A stretch of 58,911 bases of DNA from Thermoleophilia bacterium (GTDB taxonomy: Bacteria; Actinomycetota; Thermoleophilia; Gaiellales; Gaiellaceae), in the NCBI GenBank assembly GCA_009694305.1, contig SHVL01000009.1:1-58911 (forward strand). The letters are read 5' to 3'. This document shows, in pieces, positions 29,045 to 45,466 of this stretch (the first letter of the stretch is position 1; the number at the start of each line of letters is the position of its first letter). The translations under genes were made by a program, and so were the position numbers. The notes beneath the pieces are model-generated. The model made no database searches and was not told the DNA's origin. It saw only the letters and a list, made by a program, of their open reading frames with translations.

Positions 29045-30232
29045 ATGACCTCGATCACCGATCTTCCCGTGCGACTGCAGTCGGTCGCTACCCGGTCGCC
29101 CCACGTGACAGTGGTGGCGACAACCCACCCTCTCACGGTCGGTGCGGCACCGTTCAACACCGCGATGGTGGCCGCGATGCGACACCGCGGGCCGGTTGAC
29201 CTGATCTCGTGGAAGCGCCCCTACCCTCCGCTCCTCTATCGCACCGCCGCCCACGACCATCTCTCAAACCCTCCCCGGGTCGAATCGGCAGCGTTCATAC
29301 TCGACTGGGCCGATCCGTGGAGCTGGCGGCGGGCCGTGCGACGGATGCGAGAACTCGAGACGGACGCCCTCGTGATTCCGTGGCTTCACCCGGTCGTCGC
29401 GCCTCCCGTCTCATGGCTGCTGAAGCACGCGCCCGCCCGAACAACGCGGGTCGTCGTCTGCCACAACGTCGTCACGCACGAGCGTGTCCCGTTCGGCGAC
29501 CGGATCACGGCCCGCACGCTCCGGCGCGCGGACGTGTTCGTCACCCACGCCCCACATCAGCGCGCCGAACTGGCTACTCTCGGCCTCGCTTCCACGCCCA
29601 TCGTCGAAGCATTCCACCCACGCTTCGTCGCTGCCGACCTCGCACACCCACCAACGGCGGACGCCGTCCTCGGGGAGCGGGCACGGCAGGGCGACCCCGA
29701 CCTCGTTCTTCTCTGCTTCGGAGCTGTCAGGCCGTACAAGGGCGTCGATATCGCGCTCGCGGCACTTCCCCACGTTGACCCGGCACTCACCGTCCGCCTC
29801 GTGATCGCAGGCCGATTCTGGGAGGGACGTGCCGACTACGAGGCTCTGATCCGCACGCTCGGGGTCGAGCGGCAGGTCGAGATTCGTGACAGGTACGTGG
29901 GCAACGACGAGGCCGCTCTTCTGTTTGCTTCGTGTGATGCCGTGGTGCTGCCGTATCGATCCGCGAGCCAGTCCGGGGTCGTTGGGCTCGCGTTTGCGCA
30001 CGAACGCCCCGTGATCGCCACCCGCGTGGGCGGATTGCCCGAAGCGGTGTCCGACGGCATCGACGGGCTCATCGTCTCGCCGGAGGATCCGATTGCGCTC
30101 GCCCGCGCGATCGAGCGGTTGGCCCGTGAACGCACCGGGTTGCGCGAAGGGGTACAGCGAGGCCAGGATGCTCAATCCTTCGACGTCTACGCCGAGTTGC
30201 TCGAGTCCGGCATAGCGAAAACGACCTGTTGA
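29045..30232 (+). CDS. GT4 family glycosyltransferase
   Basis: 395 aa, GT-B fold. The C-terminal domain has FGAVRPYKGVDIALAAL (Lys of the nucleotide-sugar site) and SASQSGVVGLAFAHERPVIATRVGGLPEAV (acidic E-x7-E-like acceptor motif, with the first acidic residue replaced by S). The N-terminal domain holds the HNVVTHERVPFGD acceptor region. It probably adds one sugar to the surface polysaccharide repeat on the cytoplasmic face. It overlaps the next gene by TTGA. Confidence 0.85.
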   Translation: MTSITDLPVRLQSVATRSPHVTVVATTHPLTVGAAPFNTAMVAAMRHRGPVDLISWKRPYPPLLYRTAAHDHLSNPPRVESAAFILDWADPWSWRRAVRRMRELETDALVIPWLHPVVAPPVSWLLKHAPARTTRVVVCHNVVTHERVPFGDRITARTLRRADVFVTHAPHQRAELATLGLASTPIVEAFHPRFVAADLAHPPTADAVLGERARQGDPDLVLLCFGAVRPYKGVDIALAALPHVDPALTVRLVIAGRFWEGRADYEALIRTLGVERQVEIRDRYVGNDEAALLFASCDAVVLPYRSASQSGVVGLAFAHERPVIATRVGGLPEAVSDGIDGLIVSPEDPIALARAIERLARERTGLREGVQRGQDAQSFDVYAELLESGIAKTTC

Positions 30233-33200
30233 GCGGCCTCGTAACCGAGTCGTTCGTCGGGCTCGAGCGAACGTCGGCGCTCCCACGGCGCTCACTACGA
30301 GTCAACGTCAGCCTCGCCTTCGTCGGTGATGTTGCGGTCAAGGCCTCGAGCCTGCTCGTACTGCTCGCACTTGCGCGCATTCTCTCGACCCCCGAGCTCG
30401 CGCATCTGGGTATTGCGCTCGCGCTCGGTACGGTTGCGGCGACCGTCCTCGACGGTGGTGCATCCACGATCCTCGTGCGGGACGGCTCCACCCCGGGCCT
30501 CCGCACCGCGCTCGCGCTCGGGTCGGGCCTCGCACGACTTCCCGTCGCCTGCGCCGTTGTCGCCGCAGGCGCCGTCATCGGCATGGTGTTCGGTCAGATC
30601 GGCCTCGGGCTGGCGACTGCTGGCCTGGCCATCGCCATGGCCTCTGCGCTCACGTTCCTCGCCGCCTACCGGGCAACGCAGGATTTCACCACCGAGGCAC
30701 TGGCGAAGATCGTCGTGGCCGCTTGCACTCCTCTCCTCGTGCTCGGCCTCGCTGTCTCTCGCCCGACTGCCACTGTCGCCGTCCTCGGCTTCGCCCTCTC
30801 GTGGGTAGCAGGAATCCTCCTCCTCTGGGCTCGCGCGTCCCGCGTTGGGCCGTGGGGCATCGCCGCACCGATGCTGCCGTCTCTGCTCGCGGGGATGCCG
30901 TTCGCGGCGATGGCCGTTGCGACTCTTGCCTACTACCGCTCGGGCACGATCTTCCTGGGCCTGACGGCTCCGGCGGCAGAGACCGCCGGCTACACCCTCG
31001 CCGCGGCAATCGGATTCGGCCTGCTCGTCCTCCCGAACGCAATCACTACGGGCCTCCTTCCGCGCCTCTCGGCCGAGCCCGACCTCGCGCGTCGCCGGGA
31101 TGCGGTCGGAGCCTCGCTTCGCTGGTGCACGGCCCTCTGCGGGATCCTCGCGACAGCCGTGCTCGTGTTTGCGGCGACCGGGGTAGGCCTCGTCTTCGGG
31201 AAGGAGTACGAGAACGCGGCGGTGCCGCTCGCGATCCTCGGGCTCGCACTCGTCCCGGTGGGAATCAGCTCCGTTCTCGGCACGGCGCTGATCGCGCAGC
31301 GCCGGACGACCGTGGTGGCACACCAGGTCGGCATCGCACTCGTGCTCAACCTCGCCCTCTGCGCGGTGCTCGTACCGCGCCTTGGCGCCTCGGGGGCCGC
31401 TCTCGCGACGCTGGTGACCGAGGTGTTCGCCGTCGGCTATCTCGCGTCACGGTCTACGGCGCTCACCCCGTGGTATCTCGCGCTCCCTGCAGCACGACGA
31501 CTCGCTGCCGGTGTCAGCGGAGGTATTGCAGCGCTGCTCGCACTCGAGGTCGTGGCGATCAACTCGAGCTACGGGTTGCGCGTGATCTCGGACGCTCCGA
31601 GCTACCTCGCACTTCTCCCGCGTATGGCGGCCCGCCCGCTGGAGCCCGTGAGCGCATTCTTCACCACCTCCACGCTCGCCGAGAATCATGCGGGGCCCTA
31701 TACCCAGGCGCTTGCATCCCTCTGGAATGTGATCGGTGGCGACACCTGGAATGCCGGCCAGCTACCCCGGTTCCTCGGACTCGTCGGCCTCGGCACAACC
31801 CTGCTCCTGCTCCACGCAACGTTCGTGTGGTGCCGCTCGCAGGCCGGGTCGCGTGCGGCGTGGATCACGCTCCCTGTCCTGCTCGTCCTCTTTGGCCCCG
31901 CTCACGTGATCTGGGCTGGCGACTTCACCTTCCACGGCTTTCTCTACGCCGCCTACTACCCGCAGACAGTCGGGATGGCGCTGATGCTGTACACGCTCGT
32001 CGTGACCGAAGGGCCACCCCGCCGCCTGGGTATCGGCTTCGGCTCGACGCTCGTCTGCGCCACCTTGCTCGTCCATCCGTTCACGGGACTGCTGCTGTGC
32101 GTGCTGCTGCTCGTGCGCGGCATCGTCGCAGCGAACGCCCGTCGTGCCGGCTGGGGAGCAGGCAGTAAATGCCTGCTGATCGGCTTCACCGTGGCGCAGG
32201 TCTGGCCATCGTTCTCGATCACGCAGGCGCTCGGTGAATCCGGTGTGCACGGAGCACTGCTCGTGGCGATCTGCACGCTCGGGCCGGTTGCCGGGCGCGT
32301 AGCTCCCCCTGTCGGAAACCGCCTGGGCCACGCCTACCGGCGGGTGCTCGAGGGACTCTCCTCGCGAGATGCGATCCTGGCGCTCGCCGTCGCCGGAGTG
32401 GGCACGCTCGTCATACTTGCCGGGTTCGAGGTACTGCTCTTCGGGCAGCCCAATCCGGATCCGCTCGTGCATACGAACCGCCTCAGCCTCTACTGGGTCG
32501 AAGACCGTTGGCGCTGGCCGCTCATGCTCGCCGGCGGCTGGGTCGGGATCGTCGGCCTCGCACGCCTTGCGCTGAAGACGACCGCGCTACCCCTTGTCTG
32601 GTTCGGAGGCTGCTATCTCGTCGGCATCGCGGGTGCAGTCGGCCTGCCCCTGCCTCTCTGGTGGCGGCTCCTCCTCTTCTGCCAGATCCCGCTCGCGCTC
32701 GGTGTTGCAGTTCTCCTCGCCGATCGGCAACGGATACCGCGTCCCGTTGTCCTCGCCACTGCGGGACTGATCGGATCGGGCACGCTCAAGATCCTCACCC
32801 TCGTCCTCGCCCCCGCGACAATCACGTACTTCGGCACGCAACTTCAGCCGTCCTACTCGCTCGGGACGATCGTCCCGAAGGCACCCGGCATCGTCGCGTC
32901 CGACCCCTTCACGAGCTACTTCGTGCCCGGAGCGACGGGCCATCGTGTCCTCGTCGTGACGAAGGCTCACGTCACCTCGCAGGCCGAGCTCGAACAGGCA
33001 CAACGCGGCTACCAGCTCCTGCATCGGTTCGCAATGGACAACGACTGGTGGGATGCCGCGCAGACGATGTACCGACAGGGTGTCCGCTACGTCGTCGTCG
33101 AGAAGTCAACGTCGCTTCGAGCCCCGACCCTCGAGCGCTTCTCCACCGGCCCGACACCGCTTGTCCGCACACAGAGCGACCGCGCGCTGCTCGGTCGCTA

Positions 33201-34145: not shown

Positions 34146-34972
34146 GTGTTGGCGCGGATCCCCTGATCACCGTGGTCATCCCGGCCTGGGGCGACTACGT
34201 CTCACTGCTTCCCGGATGCGTCGCATCGGTGCTCAGCCAGGAAGGGCCATCGATACGCGTCGTTGTCGTGGACAACGCATCTGATCTCCCGCTTCCCGGG
34301 CTTCCAGAAGCGGTGGACGTTGTCCGGTTGCCGGAGCGCCTGGGAGTCGGAGGCGCGCGGAACGCGGTGCTGGGCCACATCGAGTCGCCGCTCGTGTGCT
34401 TCTTCGATGTAGACGACCTGATGCTTCCCGGGATGCTCGCGGCACTGACTCGTGGCCTTGCTACGAGGGAGGACTCCGTCGGATGTGTCGGGAGATTTCT
34501 CTCCTGGAACGCCGCCACGGACGTGCGAACGGATACGGCGCGGATGCCTCGGCCGGTCGTCTACCGCCTCTCGCCTCACCGGCGGCTGTTCGCCGCATCC
34601 AGCCTGCTGTTCAACTCGTTCCTCGTCGCGGGCGGGGTCTACCGCACGCAGGCCGTCCGCGACGCGGGCGGCTTCGGTGACGGCAACCTCGGGGAGGACT
34701 GGCTCCTTGCGATCGGCCTCTCACTACGCGGCAGCCTCGTGTTTCTCCCTGACCCGCTCTTCCTCCACCGTATCGAAGCCGGGTCGCTCTGGCACCGACG
34801 GCACGAACGCGCTGACGTCGAGCGCCTCTACGCCGCGGCCAGGGAGAGGATTGACCGGGACACCGCGGCACCGTCGTGGGTACGCCGATCGCTCCCTGCC
34901 GCACACCTCGTCCATCGGTTCGAGGTCTTCCGCCGCACGCGCGGAGGGTCACTCCACCCGGCAGTGCCATGA
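34142..34972 (+). CDS. GT2 family glycosyltransferase
   Basis: 276 aa from GTG 34142. The A-fold core is TVVIPAWGDYVSLLPGCVAS, VVVVDNASD, CFFDVDDLMLPG and GVYRTQAVRDAGGFGDGNLGEDW (the E-D-W acceptor motif). A second GT2 of similar size directly after the first probably adds a different residue to the same glycan. 4-nt overlaps on both sides. Confidence 0.88.
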   Translation: MSVGADPLITVVIPAWGDYVSLLPGCVASVLSQEGPSIRVVVVDNASDLPLPGLPEAVDVVRLPERLGVGGARNAVLGHIESPLVCFFDVDDLMLPGMLAALTRGLATREDSVGCVGRFLSWNAATDVRTDTARMPRPVVYRLSPHRRLFAASSLLFNSFLVAGGVYRTQAVRDAGGFGDGNLGEDWLLAIGLSLRGSLVFLPDPLFLHRIEAGSLWHRRHERADVERLYAAARERIDRDTAAPSWVRRSLPAAHLVHRFEVFRRTRGGSLHPAVP

Positions 34973-39559: not shown

Positions 39560-40648
39560 CTAGCTCTGGAGCCCGGCCTCCGTAAGGGGGCGACGTGCCC
39601 ACGCGAACGTCTTCGTGTACCAGCCTTCGAGCGGCTGCAACGTGACCCCCGCACCCGAGGAATGGGCGAACCATCCGTTCCCGATGAAGATACCGGTGTG
39701 TCCGACCTCCGCCGCAGACGACCGCGGGCCCTTGCTGCCGAAGAAGATGACGTCACCCGGTTGCAGCCCGTCGATGCCGATCCGGGCCGGCTGTTTCACC
39801 TCGGCGCTCATCGCGTAGGTCGTCCTCCCCTTGAGCATGTCGCTCAGGAGAAGCGCGCCGGGATACGGCTTCGTCTTGTACACCCGCCAGACAAATCCCG
39901 AGCAGTCGAAGCCGCCCGGCAGCGTGACCGTCCCGCCGGGCGCAGTGGCGCTCCAGAGCTGCTGCGTCCTCTCCGAGGTACCGGCCCAGACGTAGGGATA
40001 CCCGACGAACCGAAGGGCCCTCGTGAGAACTGCGCGTTGCCAGTCGCCGGTCTCGGGTACCGAGAACGTCTGACTGACCTGGTCGAGCCAGGTGATCTGT
40101 CCCGATGTCAACGCCAGCGCGCGCGCCAGTGAATAGGCAGCTTCTGCCCGTGTTGCAGGCTGCTGCGGAAGAAGCTCGAGCTCGTCCGACCCCAGCGGAT
40201 GGTTGACCCTGAGGCCGAGCAGCCGGGCAACCGTCTCCGTCCCGAGCATGGATGTCGGAGCGAGCCCGGCGTCCCGGGCCGCAATCCGGATCCTGCGCGC
40301 AGCCGGCGTCAGCCCGAGCGCGCCCACGAGCTGTGCGTCGAGCTCGCGGATCGTCACGAGGTGGCCTGGATCGGCGGGTGCGACAGGGCTCTTACCCCAG
40401 GCGACGAGCGCCGCTGCCAGCTCACCCCGCGTGAGCGGGTCGTCGGGACGGAAGGTGGCGGGGTCGGTGCCCAGGATCGATGCCGCCGTAACAGCCCTGA
40501 TCTGCGCGCTGGCCCACGATACGACGACGGGCGGCAACGAACCACCGGGGACGCCGGTGAACGACACGGCAGGGAGTGACGCAGTGGAAGCGCCCGCCAC
40601 GCCGAGCGCAACGAGAAGGGTTGACAGGAACGCGATCATACGTCGCAT
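39560..40648 (-). CDS. Secreted SLH-domain and NlpC/P60 cell-wall hydrolase
   Basis: 362 aa. Residues 1-25 are a signal peptide (IAFLSTLLVALGVAGAS). One to three S-layer-homology repeats follow (ILG.DPATFRPDDPLTRGELAAALV and LL.QQPATRAEAAYSLARALAL). The C-terminal NlpC/P60 domain has the catalytic triad Cys in GGFDCSGFVW, His in EVGHTGIFI and His in WFAHSSG. It should cleave peptidoglycan stem peptides and be held at the wall by SLH repeats. It is divergent from the selenoprotein candidate gene. Confidence 0.88.
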   Translation of the reverse strand: MRRMIAFLSTLLVALGVAGASTASLPAVSFTGVPGGSLPPVVVSWASAQIRAVTAASILGTDPATFRPDDPLTRGELAAALVAWGKSPVAPADPGHLVTIRELDAQLVGALGLTPAARRIRIAARDAGLAPTSMLGTETVARLLGLRVNHPLGSDELELLPQQPATRAEAAYSLARALALTSGQITWLDQVSQTFSVPETGDWQRAVLTRALRFVGYPYVWAGTSERTQQLWSATAPGGTVTLPGGFDCSGFVWRVYKTKPYPGALLLSDMLKGRTTYAMSAEVKQPARIGIDGLQPGDVIFFGSKGPRSSAAEVGHTGIFIGNGWFAHSSGAGVTLQPLEGWYTKTFAWARRPLTEAGLQS

Positions 40649-40772
40649 TTCCCGTGTATCGGGCAGTTCCCCCGGGGACTTGAGCGGCCCCCGGACGATG
40701 CAGAGCAGATCAGCGAAGGGCCGAGCTCTTCCACGTTGATGAAGAATGACGGGCGAGGGACCTCCCGGCCGC

Positions 40773-40784: not shown

Positions 40785-41279
40785 GTGCTCCGGCGGCTGA
40801 CCCCACTCCTCCTCACCCTCACGGCGCTCGCGGTGCTTGTCGCAGTCGCGACGGCTGCCGCTGCTGTCCGCCCGCCTGCACCGGCAACCGCAGGCCCGAC
40901 GGTCACGGGTGGGAAGGCCTCGCTCGCCGCTCTCCGCGGCAAGCCGGTGTTCATCAATGTCTGGTCGTCCTGGTGAAGCACGTGTCAGGGCGAGGCAGTT
41001 GCCTACGCACGTTGGGTGAAGCAACAGGGCAAGGCCTACGGCTTCCTCGGCCTCGACGCCGGTGACGCGATCGCCGACGGACGCGCGTTCGTGAAGCGTT
41101 ATGGCTGGACGTGGCCGTCGATCGCCGATCCGCAAAGGATTCTCTCACGCAGATTTGGCGCGAACTCCCAGCCGGCCATCCTGCTGATCGACGCGCAGGG
41201 CCGGTTCGTTGCCGGCTTCCAGGGACGTGGAACGCCCGCGCGCTGGAACGATCTGAAGCGCAAGCTCCGCTCGCCGTAG
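40785..41279 (+). CDS. Thioredoxin-like (TlpA/ResA-type) protein with in-frame UGA at the first redox Cys: candidate selenoprotein
   Basis: 164 residues from GTG 40785 if the TGA at 40974-40976 is read as selenocysteine (U64); from ATG 40746 it would have 13 more. Residues 1-27 are a signal anchor. The thioredoxin-like domain has LRGKPVFINVWSSW-U-S-T-C-QGEA, FLGLDAGD, YGWTWPSIADP, and QPAILLIDAQGRF with the cis-Pro. UGA falls exactly on the first Cys of CxxC, and the same reading frame is open, with family-like sequence, on both sides. Extracytoplasmic thiol reduction is the family role. A nonsense mutation or base error (TGT/TGC to TGA) is the alternative, in which case this is a pseudogene. 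Confidence 0.6.
40980..41012 (+). promoter_or_regulatory. SECIS-like hairpin downstream of the UGA codon
   Basis: GCG-AGGC, loop AGTT, GCCT-a-CGC (40990-41008) gives a 7-bp stem with one bulged A. It is capped by a 4-nt loop starting 20 nt after the UGA with G in its second position. ACGTG (40980-40984) and CACGT (41008-41012) add an outer stem. Bacterial SECIS elements lie in this range and need a G within the first two loop bases. The structure overlaps coding sequence, as it should in bacteria. Confidence 0.45.
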
Positions 41280-41316: not shown

Positions 41317-41718
41317 ATGACCTCCGACGAAGCGCTTCTCGGTGCTCTCCAACAGGCCGAAACCGTCACCCCGGAGGAGCGGTCTGTCCTCCTCTGTTTT
41401 CTCGCGGGGCGCTGCGTTGTCCCGGATGCGGTGGAGCTGACCGCCGCCCTGCGGCGCTCCGAGCTCCTGCTCGCAGCAGGCGGTGACCCACGTCGCCCGC
41501 TCGAGCTCTATGGCCGCGCGGTGACCGCTCTGGCAGACGACCTGGACGACTCGACGCTGCGCGCACAGCTCGCTACGGGACTCGCCTCGCTCGGCCCCGC
41601 AGCCGAGGGACTCCCCTCCACCACCACAGCCGTGGCACAGCTCCGCCACGATGCGGACCTCGCGTGGCAGTGCTACGCGATGGCCCTGCTTGCAGAGGCG
41701 CTCGCCGACCCCGGGTGA
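41317..41718 (+). CDS. Hypothetical alpha-helical protein
   Basis: 133 aa. Mostly Ala, Leu, Asp and Glu helix (VELTAALRRSELLLAAGGD, ADLAWQCYAMALLAEALAD), without signal peptide, membrane segment or known motif. It lies 37 nt after the thioredoxin-like gene on the same strand. GTG 41715 in its stop (GTGA) opens a frame that runs into the ABC gene antisense-like; that frame is not called. Confidence 0.55.
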   Translation: MTSDEALLGALQQAETVTPEERSVLLCFLAGRCVVPDAVELTAALRRSELLLAAGGDPRRPLELYGRAVTALADDLDDSTLRAQLATGLASLGPAAEGLPSTTTAVAQLRHDADLAWQCYAMALLAEALADPG

Positions 41719-41967: not shown

Positions 41968-43725
41968 GTGCAAGATGTGAACCCTCCCGATCTGACCCTC
42001 GGCCCGACATTGCGCCACCTCTACCCGCTGTGGCGCGAGCAATGGCGTCTCGTCATGGTCGGCATCCTCTGCGCACTCGCCTTTACGGGCCTCTCGCTGG
42101 CGATCCCGATCCTGATCCAGCGCACGATCGACAATGCGATCGACGGCGGCGACACCTCACTCCTCCTTCGCTATCTCGGTCTGATGCTCGTGATCGGAGC
42201 GCTTCGCTTCGGCGTCAACTTCATGCGTCGCTACTCGGCTGCCCGCATCGGCATCACGGCCGAGGCGCGGTTGCGCGGGATGATGTACGACGCCTACCTC
42301 CGCTTCCCGCGCGCCTTCTACGACAGGCATGCGACCGGCGAGGTGATCTCCCGCGCAACGAACGACATCTACCCGGTGCGCTACTTCATCGGCTGGGGCG
42401 TCATCCAGGCGATGCAAAGCGCGATGATGCTGATCGGCGCTGCCGTCGTCCTCACCTCTGTCAACGCCAGGCTTGCCCTCTACGCGGCCCTCGCGATGCC
42501 TGCGGTTGCGGTGCTGACATACATCTTCGCGCAGAGGGTTCATCCCATCTCACGCGCCGTCCAGGCGAGGAAGGGAAACCTGACCGAGGCCACCGACGAA
42601 GCGGTGATCGGGATCGAGATGGTGCAGGCATTCGGCCGAGAGGAAGATATCCGCAACCGCTTCGGAGACAGAGCCGATGCTCTACGCGCCGAGACGATGC
42701 GACAGGCGGGCCTCGAGGCGCGGTTTCTTCCCGGCCTGATCTTCCTCCCGACACTCGGGATCGCCGCCGTTCTCTACTTCGGCGGTAAGGATGCGATAGC
42801 CGGAACGCTGACAATCGGTGAGTTCGCGCTGTTCACGACACTGCTGCTGCAGCTCGTGTGGCCGCTCGAGGCACTCGGCTGGATCATCAACCTCGGCCAG
42901 CGGGCGACGGCCGCGGCGTCCCGGTCGTTCGCCTGGCTGAGATTTATCGAGCCACTCGCCGAACCGGCACACCCCATTCACCTCCCGGATGGCCCTCTGG
43001 CGATCCGGTTCGAGAGCGTCCACTTCAGCTACGGGGTCGGCAGCGAGGTGCTCTCCGGCGTCGCCCTCGATGTCGCTCCCGGCGAGATAGTCGCGGTCTG
43101 CGGAGCCACCGGAGCCGGAAAGACCTCGCTGCTCAACCTGCTGCCGCGGTTCTATGACCCCACCGAGGGCCGCGTGCTCGTTGGAGGGATCGACAGCCGG
43201 GATATAGCGCTGCAGGAGCTCCGCGGCGCCGTGGCTCTCGTGACGCAGAAACCCGTTCTCTTCTCCGTGCTCTTACGCGACAACCTGCTCGCGGGCCGCC
43301 CCGACGCAGACTGGGCCGACGTGCTTGCCGCCTGCGAAGCAGCGGGCGTGGCCTCGTTCGTCAACGGGCTCCCGAACGGCTACGACACGCTCATCGGCGA
43401 GCGCGGGGTCAACCTCTCCGGGGGCCAGCGCCAGCGCGTCGCACTGGCCCGGGCGCTCGTCGCCCGGGCTCGGGTGATCGTGCTCGACGACCCACTGTCG
43501 GCCGTTGACACCCAGACCGAGCGTCACCTCGTGGCAACCCTTCGTCCTGCGGTTCTGGGGCGCACCGTGCTGATCGCCGGGCAGCGCCTCTCGACCATTC
43601 TCGTCGCAGACCGGGCGATCGTCCTGAAGGACGGCCGCGTGGTCGAGAACGGGGCCCCACGCGACCTGCTCCGCCTCGGCGGCGTCTTCACCGCCCTCTT
43701 CGGAGACGAAGTACTTGCCGCCTGA
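41968..43725 (+). CDS. ABC exporter half-transporter with degenerate ATP site
   Basis: 585 aa: six-helix exporter TMD (1-320) and NBD (345-585). Walker A GATGAGKTS, Q-loop VTQKPVLF, signature LSGGQRQR. The Walker B end is VLDDPLSAVD, with Asp where catalytic Glu is expected, and the H-loop is GQRLS (Gln for His), so this site is probably non-catalytic. Such a chain pairs with a competent partner in heterodimeric multidrug/lipid exporters. The next gene overlaps it by 11 nt and has canonical motifs. Start GTG 41968 follows CAGGAG. Confidence 0.9.
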   Translation: MQDVNPPDLTLGPTLRHLYPLWREQWRLVMVGILCALAFTGLSLAIPILIQRTIDNAIDGGDTSLLLRYLGLMLVIGALRFGVNFMRRYSAARIGITAEARLRGMMYDAYLRFPRAFYDRHATGEVISRATNDIYPVRYFIGWGVIQAMQSAMMLIGAAVVLTSVNARLALYAALAMPAVAVLTYIFAQRVHPISRAVQARKGNLTEATDEAVIGIEMVQAFGREEDIRNRFGDRADALRAETMRQAGLEARFLPGLIFLPTLGIAAVLYFGGKDAIAGTLTIGEFALFTTLLLQLVWPLEALGWIINLGQRATAAASRSFAWLRFIEPLAEPAHPIHLPDGPLAIRFESVHFSYGVGSEVLSGVALDVAPGEIVAVCGATGAGKTSLLNLLPRFYDPTEGRVLVGGIDSRDIALQELRGAVALVTQKPVLFSVLLRDNLLAGRPDADWADVLAACEAAGVASFVNGLPNGYDTLIGERGVNLSGGQRQRVALARALVARARVIVLDDPLSAVDTQTERHLVATLRPAVLGRTVLIAGQRLSTILVADRAIVLKDGRVVENGAPRDLLRLGGVFTALFGDEVLAA

Positions 43726-45466
43726 ACCCCGCACCGGGCTCTCTCGCCTCCTGCGCTACACGGTCGGCCGCCGAAGGCAATTCGCCATTGTCATCCTGCT
43801 TGCAGCCGTCTCCGCCGCCGCACCCGTCGTCGGGTGGGCGATCATCGGGGACGCGATCGACAGCGGGATCAAGGCAGACAATCCCTCACGGCTCACCGTT
43901 GACGTCGTCCTCTACATCGCCGTCGGCCTGACCGCCTGGATCCTCGGGTCGCTGACCTGGCAGATGCTCGCGGGAATCGGCCAGCAGATCGTGCTCGACC
44001 TGCGCCGCGACGTGTTCGGGCACCTCACGTCTCTCTCGCTCCGGTACTTCTCGCAACAGAAAGCGGGCTGGATCATCGCGCGTCTGACGAGCGACGTCGA
44101 TGCGCTCTCCGAAGTGCTCAACCAGGGTCTGACGACGCTCGTGATCAACTCGATGACTCTGGTTGCCGCGGTCATCGGGCTCTTCGTCCTCGACTGGCGA
44201 CTCGGCGTCGTCGCGCTCGTCATCCTGCCACCGGCCGTCGTCGCTACCCGGTGGTTCCAGGCCACGTCGCTCATCGCCTTTGCCGACGTGCGAACCCGGA
44301 TCGCGGTCGTCACGGCCCAGCTCGCCGAGTCTGTCTCCGGGATGGCAGTGATCCAGGCCTTTGGCCGCGAGCGCGCGTTTCAGTCCGAGTTCGACGGCCT
44401 GAACGAGGCAAACAGGGTCTCGAACGTCTACGCACAGAAGCTCTCGTCGTTCTTCTTCCCCGCGATCGAGTTCCTCGGCGTGATCGCCACGGTCTGCGTG
44501 CTCTTTGCCGGCGCGAGGATGATCGGCGCCGGCTCGCTCGAAATCGGGACGCTGATCGCTGCGATGGGGATGCTTCAGCTCGTCTTCCAACCACTCCAGG
44601 AGCTGTCGGAGCTGTACGGCCAGGTGCAGGCGGCGAGCGCGGCAATGACGAAGATCTCGACCGTCCTCGATGCCGAACAGGACATCACCGACCGTGAAGG
44701 CGCTCCCGAGATCGGCCACATCGCGGGTCATCTGCAACTCGAGAACGTCGTCTTCGCCTACGGCGACGAGACCGTCATCCACGGCATCTCGATCGACGTC
44801 CCGGCGGGCGGATGTGTCGCCCTCGTGGGCGAGTCGGGGGGCGGCAAGTCCACGACCGCGAAGCTGATCGCCCGGTTCTACGACCCGCTCGAGGGGTCGG
44901 TAAAGGTAGACGGCGTCGATCTTCGAGACATCCAACTCGGGTCGCTACGCCGGCAACTCGGTGTCGTGCTCCAGGACCCGTTCCTCTTCAGCGGCACGAT
45001 CGCCGACAACATCCGCTTTGGTCGCCCCGGGGCGACCGACGAGGAGGTCGCCTCGGCGGCCCGGGCGATCGGCGTAGACAGGGTCACCGCACGATTCGAG
45101 GATGGCCTCGCTCACGTCGTACGCGAAGGCGGATCGGGCCTGTCGGCAGGCGAGCGACAGCTGATCTCGATCGCACGGGCCCTGCTCGCCGACCCACGAA
45201 TCCTGATCCTCGACGAGGCGACCTCGAACATCGACCGCCCGAGCGAGATCCTGATCGAGAAGGCGTTCGACACGCTGCTCCGCGGACGAACGTCCGTGAT
45301 CATCGCCCACCGCCTCGCGACGGTGCGGAGAGCCGACGAGATTCTCGTGATCGAGCACGGACATGTGACGCAGCGTGGCACCGAGGCGAAACTGCTGTCC
45401 GAGGACGGCCCGTTTCGCCGGCTAGCGGAAACGATGCACGGCATGCCCATCCGCGATGTCGCGTAG
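43715..45466 (+). CDS. ABC exporter half-transporter, catalytic partner
   Basis: 583 aa from TTG 43715. TMD (1-330) with the coupling-helix region typical of the MsbA/LmrA type. NBD with GESGGGKST, VLQDPFLFSG, the signature LSAGERQ (Ala for the first Gly), Walker B ILILDEATSNID with Glu, and IAHRLAT with His. With the preceding gene it forms an asymmetric heterodimer. Substrate unknown; multidrug or lipid-linked compound likely. Two inverted repeats downstream (45502-45536 and 45555-45571) may terminate the operon. Confidence 0.9.
   Translation: MPPEPRTGLSRLLRYTVGRRRQFAIVILLAAVSAAAPVVGWAIIGDAIDSGIKADNPSRLTVDVVLYIAVGLTAWILGSLTWQMLAGIGQQIVLDLRRDVFGHLTSLSLRYFSQQKAGWIIARLTSDVDALSEVLNQGLTTLVINSMTLVAAVIGLFVLDWRLGVVALVILPPAVVATRWFQATSLIAFADVRTRIAVVTAQLAESVSGMAVIQAFGRERAFQSEFDGLNEANRVSNVYAQKLSSFFFPAIEFLGVIATVCVLFAGARMIGAGSLEIGTLIAAMGMLQLVFQPLQELSELYGQVQAASAAMTKISTVLDAEQDITDREGAPEIGHIAGHLQLENVVFAYGDETVIHGISIDVPAGGCVALVGESGGGKSTTAKLIARFYDPLEGSVKVDGVDLRDIQLGSLRRQLGVVLQDPFLFSGTIADNIRFGRPGATDEEVASAARAIGVDRVTARFEDGLAHVVREGGSGLSAGERQLISIARALLADPRILILDEATSNIDRPSEILIEKAFDTLLRGRTSVIIAHRLATVRRADEILVIEHGHVTQRGTEAKLLSEDGPFRRLAETMHGMPIRDVA

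Follow-up and report, generated by a model that had tools for sequence, protein, structure and literature searches.

A predicted TlpA/ResA-family selenoprotein with an active-site UxxC motif in Gaiellales-type actinobacteria

A review from 2026 (PMC13188914, Table 1) lists selenoproteins with a UxxC motif, of the PF00578/cd02966 type, together with a UGC-containing TlpA protein, and an earlier survey placed Actinobacteria, including Rubrobacter, among the selenoprotein-rich phyla (PMC1794560). The gene that we describe here lies in a 58,911-nt stretch of DNA (the window), which is contig C23 of a 2.47-Mb genome that is 97% complete. Its predicted product shares with the Prx-like and TlpA-like proteins of that review (PF00578; cd02966 "thiol-disulfide isomerase-like") the domain family, the UxxC motif and a Sec at the first Cys position, but it belongs to a different lineage, most likely Gaiellales, and the likeness noted here is one of family and motif. 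With the ResA-like WAxxUGC selenoprotein NF041054 (NCBIfam) it has in common a ResA-like fold and the selenoprotein class, while its motif is WSSWUSTC (U-S-T-C) instead of WAxxUGC. Membership in this family (WAxxUGC_long) was rejected, as the protein scores 33.7 bits where the cut-off is 300 and the motif is also unmatched. The thioredoxin-like fold, the predicted export, the layout of the active-site motif and the cis-Pro are shared with Bacillus ResA, CcmG/DsbE and mycobacterial DsbF (PDB 1st9, 2b1k and 3ios), but these use Cys where the window protein is predicted to use Sec, and its substrate may differ. The initial annotation had regarded both protein and lineage as new. For the lineage this is consistent with an open-access literature search, in which no paper on selenoproteins of Gaiellales or Thermoleophilia turned up, but it does not hold for the type of protein. 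Since TlpA/ResA-like UxxC selenoproteins are known, the finding is a new subfamily of a known class, in an apparently unreported lineage.

The gene occupies positions 40785-41279 of the plus strand, starts with GTG or alternatively with an in-frame ATG at 40746, ends with TAG and specifies 164 residues from the GTG when its UGA is counted as Sec. The initial annotation had described this frame as open but for one TGA, placed at the first Cys of a CxxC motif and flanked by family-like sequence that includes the cis-Pro segment, and every part of this description is borne out. The single internal stop in the translation is a TGA at codon 64 (40974-40976, plus strand), the predicted Sec64 and first redox residue of UxxC in the motif W-S-S-W-U-S-T-C. 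In a 29-row alignment, the resolving Cys67 (TGT, 40983-40985), the Glu after this second Cys and the cis-Pro130 of the thioredoxin fold (41172-41174) are invariant. Pfam matches to PF00578 (55.5 bits) and PF08534 (44.7 bits) are both over cut-off, and an AlphaFold model with a pLDDT of 91 finds its best PDB matches in ResA from Bacillus, with TM-scores by target length of up to 0.88. The best solved sequences for the profile are DsbF and ResA. The protein thus has what defines the TlpA/ResA/DsbE group, namely a thioredoxin fold, an active-site UxxC in place of CxxC, and a cis-Pro.

We searched for homologues in genomes of the order, first 61 and later 129, and scanned a public genome collection. 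This yielded 21 distinct full copies whose codon 64 is TGA, from about 19 genomes (some 18 related species besides that of the window), plus one further copy that is truncated. The named records among the carriers are metagenome-assembled genomes assigned to Thermoleophilia, Actinomycetota and Actinomycetes. Among the UGA-carrying genomes, G010 encodes four UGA TlpA paralogues (L059, L060, L061 and L062), some of which display long Pro/Ala-rich linkers after a lipoprotein-like N terminus. The TGA codon is kept down to about 30% identity across independently assembled genomes, while the nearest Cys proteins are free of stops. When UGA copies and Cys homologues are aligned, as the initial annotation had proposed, codon 64 is TGA in 21/21 members of the UGA clade and TGC or TGT in 32/32 Cys homologues; the in-frame UGA is thus aligned with the catalytic Cys of homologues, as in bacterial selenoproteins. 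In the tree, one branch (support 100/98) separates all the UGA copies from all the Cys copies. Sequencing or assembly errors at an original TGC or TGT would be conceivable in assemblies that are of draft, metagenome-type quality throughout, but the TGA is common to independent assemblies from about 19 species, which leaves this explanation a negligible probability. A separate TlpA-like frame, about 26% identical, was seen in a Nitrospirae metagenome-assembled genome (L165:2899, JACRHK010000180.1), where TGA takes the place of the first Cys of CxxC (TGA-P-F-C); it is likely an independent selenoprotein.

TGA is a normal stop in the genome of the window, and the gene could on that account be a pseudogene ending at codon 63, followed by a relic of its former frame. 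However, an identical stop placed at the active site in 21 divergent copies, which are devoid of other internal stops, is hard to reconcile with decay, and so is the pattern of selection. Past the UGA, the window gene differs from its closest relative by a dN of 0.119 and a dS of 0.48 (dN/dS of about 0.25), and other pairs of close relatives give dN/dS values of approximately 0.05-0.3. This is purifying selection, as expected if the frame past the UGA is translated, and it sets aside the prospect, raised at the outset, of a conserved stop with no reading frame behind it. We therefore consider a premature stop very improbable.

The SECIS of Escherichia coli fdhF is a hairpin located just 3' of the UGA within the coding sequence, with GU in its apical loop. 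The window gene exhibits a SECIS-like hairpin at 40990-41008 (plus strand), in which 40990-40996 pair with 41001-41004 and 41006-41008 (GCGAGGC/GCCU-A-CGC), A41005 is bulged and the loop is AGUU (40997-41000). The seven pairs, the single bulge, the four-base loop with G in second position and the spacing from the UGA (13 nt to the stem, 20 nt to the loop) are all as the initial annotation had described them. The position immediately after the UGA in the coding sequence and the apical-loop GU resemble fdhF, but the stem sequence is different and the adenine bulge is on the 3' side; SelB binding is putative. All seven pairs are kept in 15 of the 21 UGA copies, while the remaining six show a register-shifted eight-pair stem with a 3-nt loop, in which eight pairs form in three copies, seven in two and five in one. 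Counting against the hairpin, its lower stem is broken in the homologue from genome G100. Another candidate, in which GCGA/UCGC enclose a loop of 5 nt, is broken in six homologues and is thus less likely to be the functional one.

Taken by itself, the window hairpin is unexceptional (p of about 0.1 against synonymous shuffles). The minimum-energy fold of the window sequence differs from it (42 nt, z = -1.3), and we discarded this single-sequence energy z-score as uninformative. The hairpin rises above chance because it is kept along with the UGA in about 20 further homologues. Against synonymous shuffles, its mean energy z is -1.75 in the UGA set versus +0.16 in the Cys set, values that are not independent since the copies are related. 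At codons +5 to +9, agreement on the same synonymous codon is 0.88 in the UGA set (0.48 expected) versus 0.68 in the Cys set (0.61 expected), and in the former Ser+5 is AGC in 15/15 copies and Ala+9 is GCC in 20/20. Synonymous sites beneath the hairpin are therefore nearly frozen, in UGA copies only. A covariation test found zero pairs with compensatory changes and is uninformative, since the pairs are almost invariant. In the absence of classical covariation, the RNA argument rests on conservation and sequence constraint: as in bacterial selenoproteins, the UGA is followed by a hairpin constrained at the RNA level, as judged from synonymous sites and kept pairing.

Decoding of UGA as Sec requires dedicated machinery, for which the initial annotation had proposed searching the genome, and all of it is there. 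Within 6 kb of contig C66, a single locus harbors selA (510 bits, 29114-30388), selB (351 bits, with the conserved part at 31166-32182 in an ORF of 578 aa) and a tRNA-Sec (34739-34830) that scores 62.5 bits in Rfam and is called tRNA-SeC with anticodon TCA by ARAGORN. SelD (355 bits) is encoded on contig C5 and contains the Cys and Lys expected of its active site (SLAKAGGCAAKYP). About 230 nt downstream of the tRNA-Sec lies a gene that by eye we would name DsbA/FrnE-like (L058:11064-11942, on the same contig). A second tRNA-Sec-like match, on C90, was identified as tRNA-Ser(UGA).

Could an unusual tRNA or general read-through instead insert Cys or Trp at the UGA, at least in genomes lacking sel genes? 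Seven of the 19 UGA-carrying genomes, all incomplete, have neither SelA nor SelB over cut-off (G002, G004, G008, G078, G088, G099 and G100), while both are found in the other 12. However, the window's genome has canonical machinery, and among the tRNA-Sec-like loci scanned, none besides the tRNA-Sec has a UCA anticodon. Nor is TGA a sense codon in general, since it terminates many long frames of the window (21 of the 36 open stretches that reach 400 codons or more). Genes missing from draft assemblies are plausible as well, because contig ends frequently interrupt selA. We therefore give reading as another residue very little credence.

The seven genomes are an anomaly that counts against Sec decoding, since completeness predicts only about three negatives, versus the seven observed (P = 0.016); one of them, G078, shows 9% contamination. 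SelA is found in about two-thirds of the genomes of the order, with or without the UGA gene, and the presence of sel genes alone is thus not discriminating. By our count from the table of matches, some 18 of about 80 SelA matches are fragmentary, many at contig ends, which indicates a locus that assembles poorly. Missing assembly likely explains the absent selA and selB, and there is only a slim chance that in these genomes the UGA would be decoded, as Sec or another residue, outside the known SelA/SelB pathway. A further point against Sec decoding comes from G001, which has selA and selB but in which a search for tRNA-Sec found none, either beside them (L099, G001:C35) or elsewhere in that genome. 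In G003 (C1:1901018-1902291), selA is matched by two pieces that overlap and apparently lie in different frames, which may reflect a frameshift or a sequencing error.

As for its location, the window protein has an N-terminal hydrophobic helix (40785-40865, plus strand; VLRRLTPLLLTLTALAVLVAVATAAAA; helix 6-26 in the model), a probable signal peptide or membrane anchor; the N termini of relatives are lipoprotein-like, with a Cys. The best reading is thus a presumably exported reductase or oxidase. Upstream, a divergent gene on the minus strand (39560-40648) encodes a protein assigned by Pfam to NlpC/P60 with an S-layer homology domain, which is kept beside the UGA gene in the window's genome, in G001, G002 and G004 (one genus) and in record L110, and hints at a role of the UGA protein in the cell envelope. 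A small ORF of 133 aa without Pfam match (41317-41718, plus strand) is kept downstream in G001, G002 and G004. Further downstream (41968-45466) are two consecutive ABC transporter genes with membrane and ATPase domains, the first of which was covered by the Pfam run. A promoter scan found nothing.

The selenoprotein interpretation of the initial annotation is upheld by the machinery in the gene's own genome, the TGA in independent assemblies and the purifying selection past it, and a selenoprotein with a predicted Sec64 is well supported at the sequence level. We put at roughly 0.93 the probability that the gene encodes an exported TlpA/ResA-family oxidoreductase whose attacking residue is Sec, with the UGA decoded via SelB and the hairpin. 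Sec insertion, export, redox direction and substrate are what we infer, as follows. The hairpin, from inside the coding sequence, would recruit SelB, which would bring the Sec-tRNA-Sec(UCA) that decodes the UGA. The mature protein would act outside the membrane, where Sec64 would attack a disulfide or another oxidized substrate, Cys67 would resolve the mixed selenylsulfide, and re-reduction of the protein would fall to a membrane electron donor, putatively CcdA/DsbD-like.

Uncultured Gaiellales-type actinobacteria thus appear to have a complete Sec system, with a predicted use in an exported redox protein present in up to four copies per genome. Standard gene calling has such genes stop at the UGA or begin past it, so the whole TlpA-like clade has probably been missed. 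Its 21 sequences represent a compact SECIS family for testing recognition by actinobacterial SelB.
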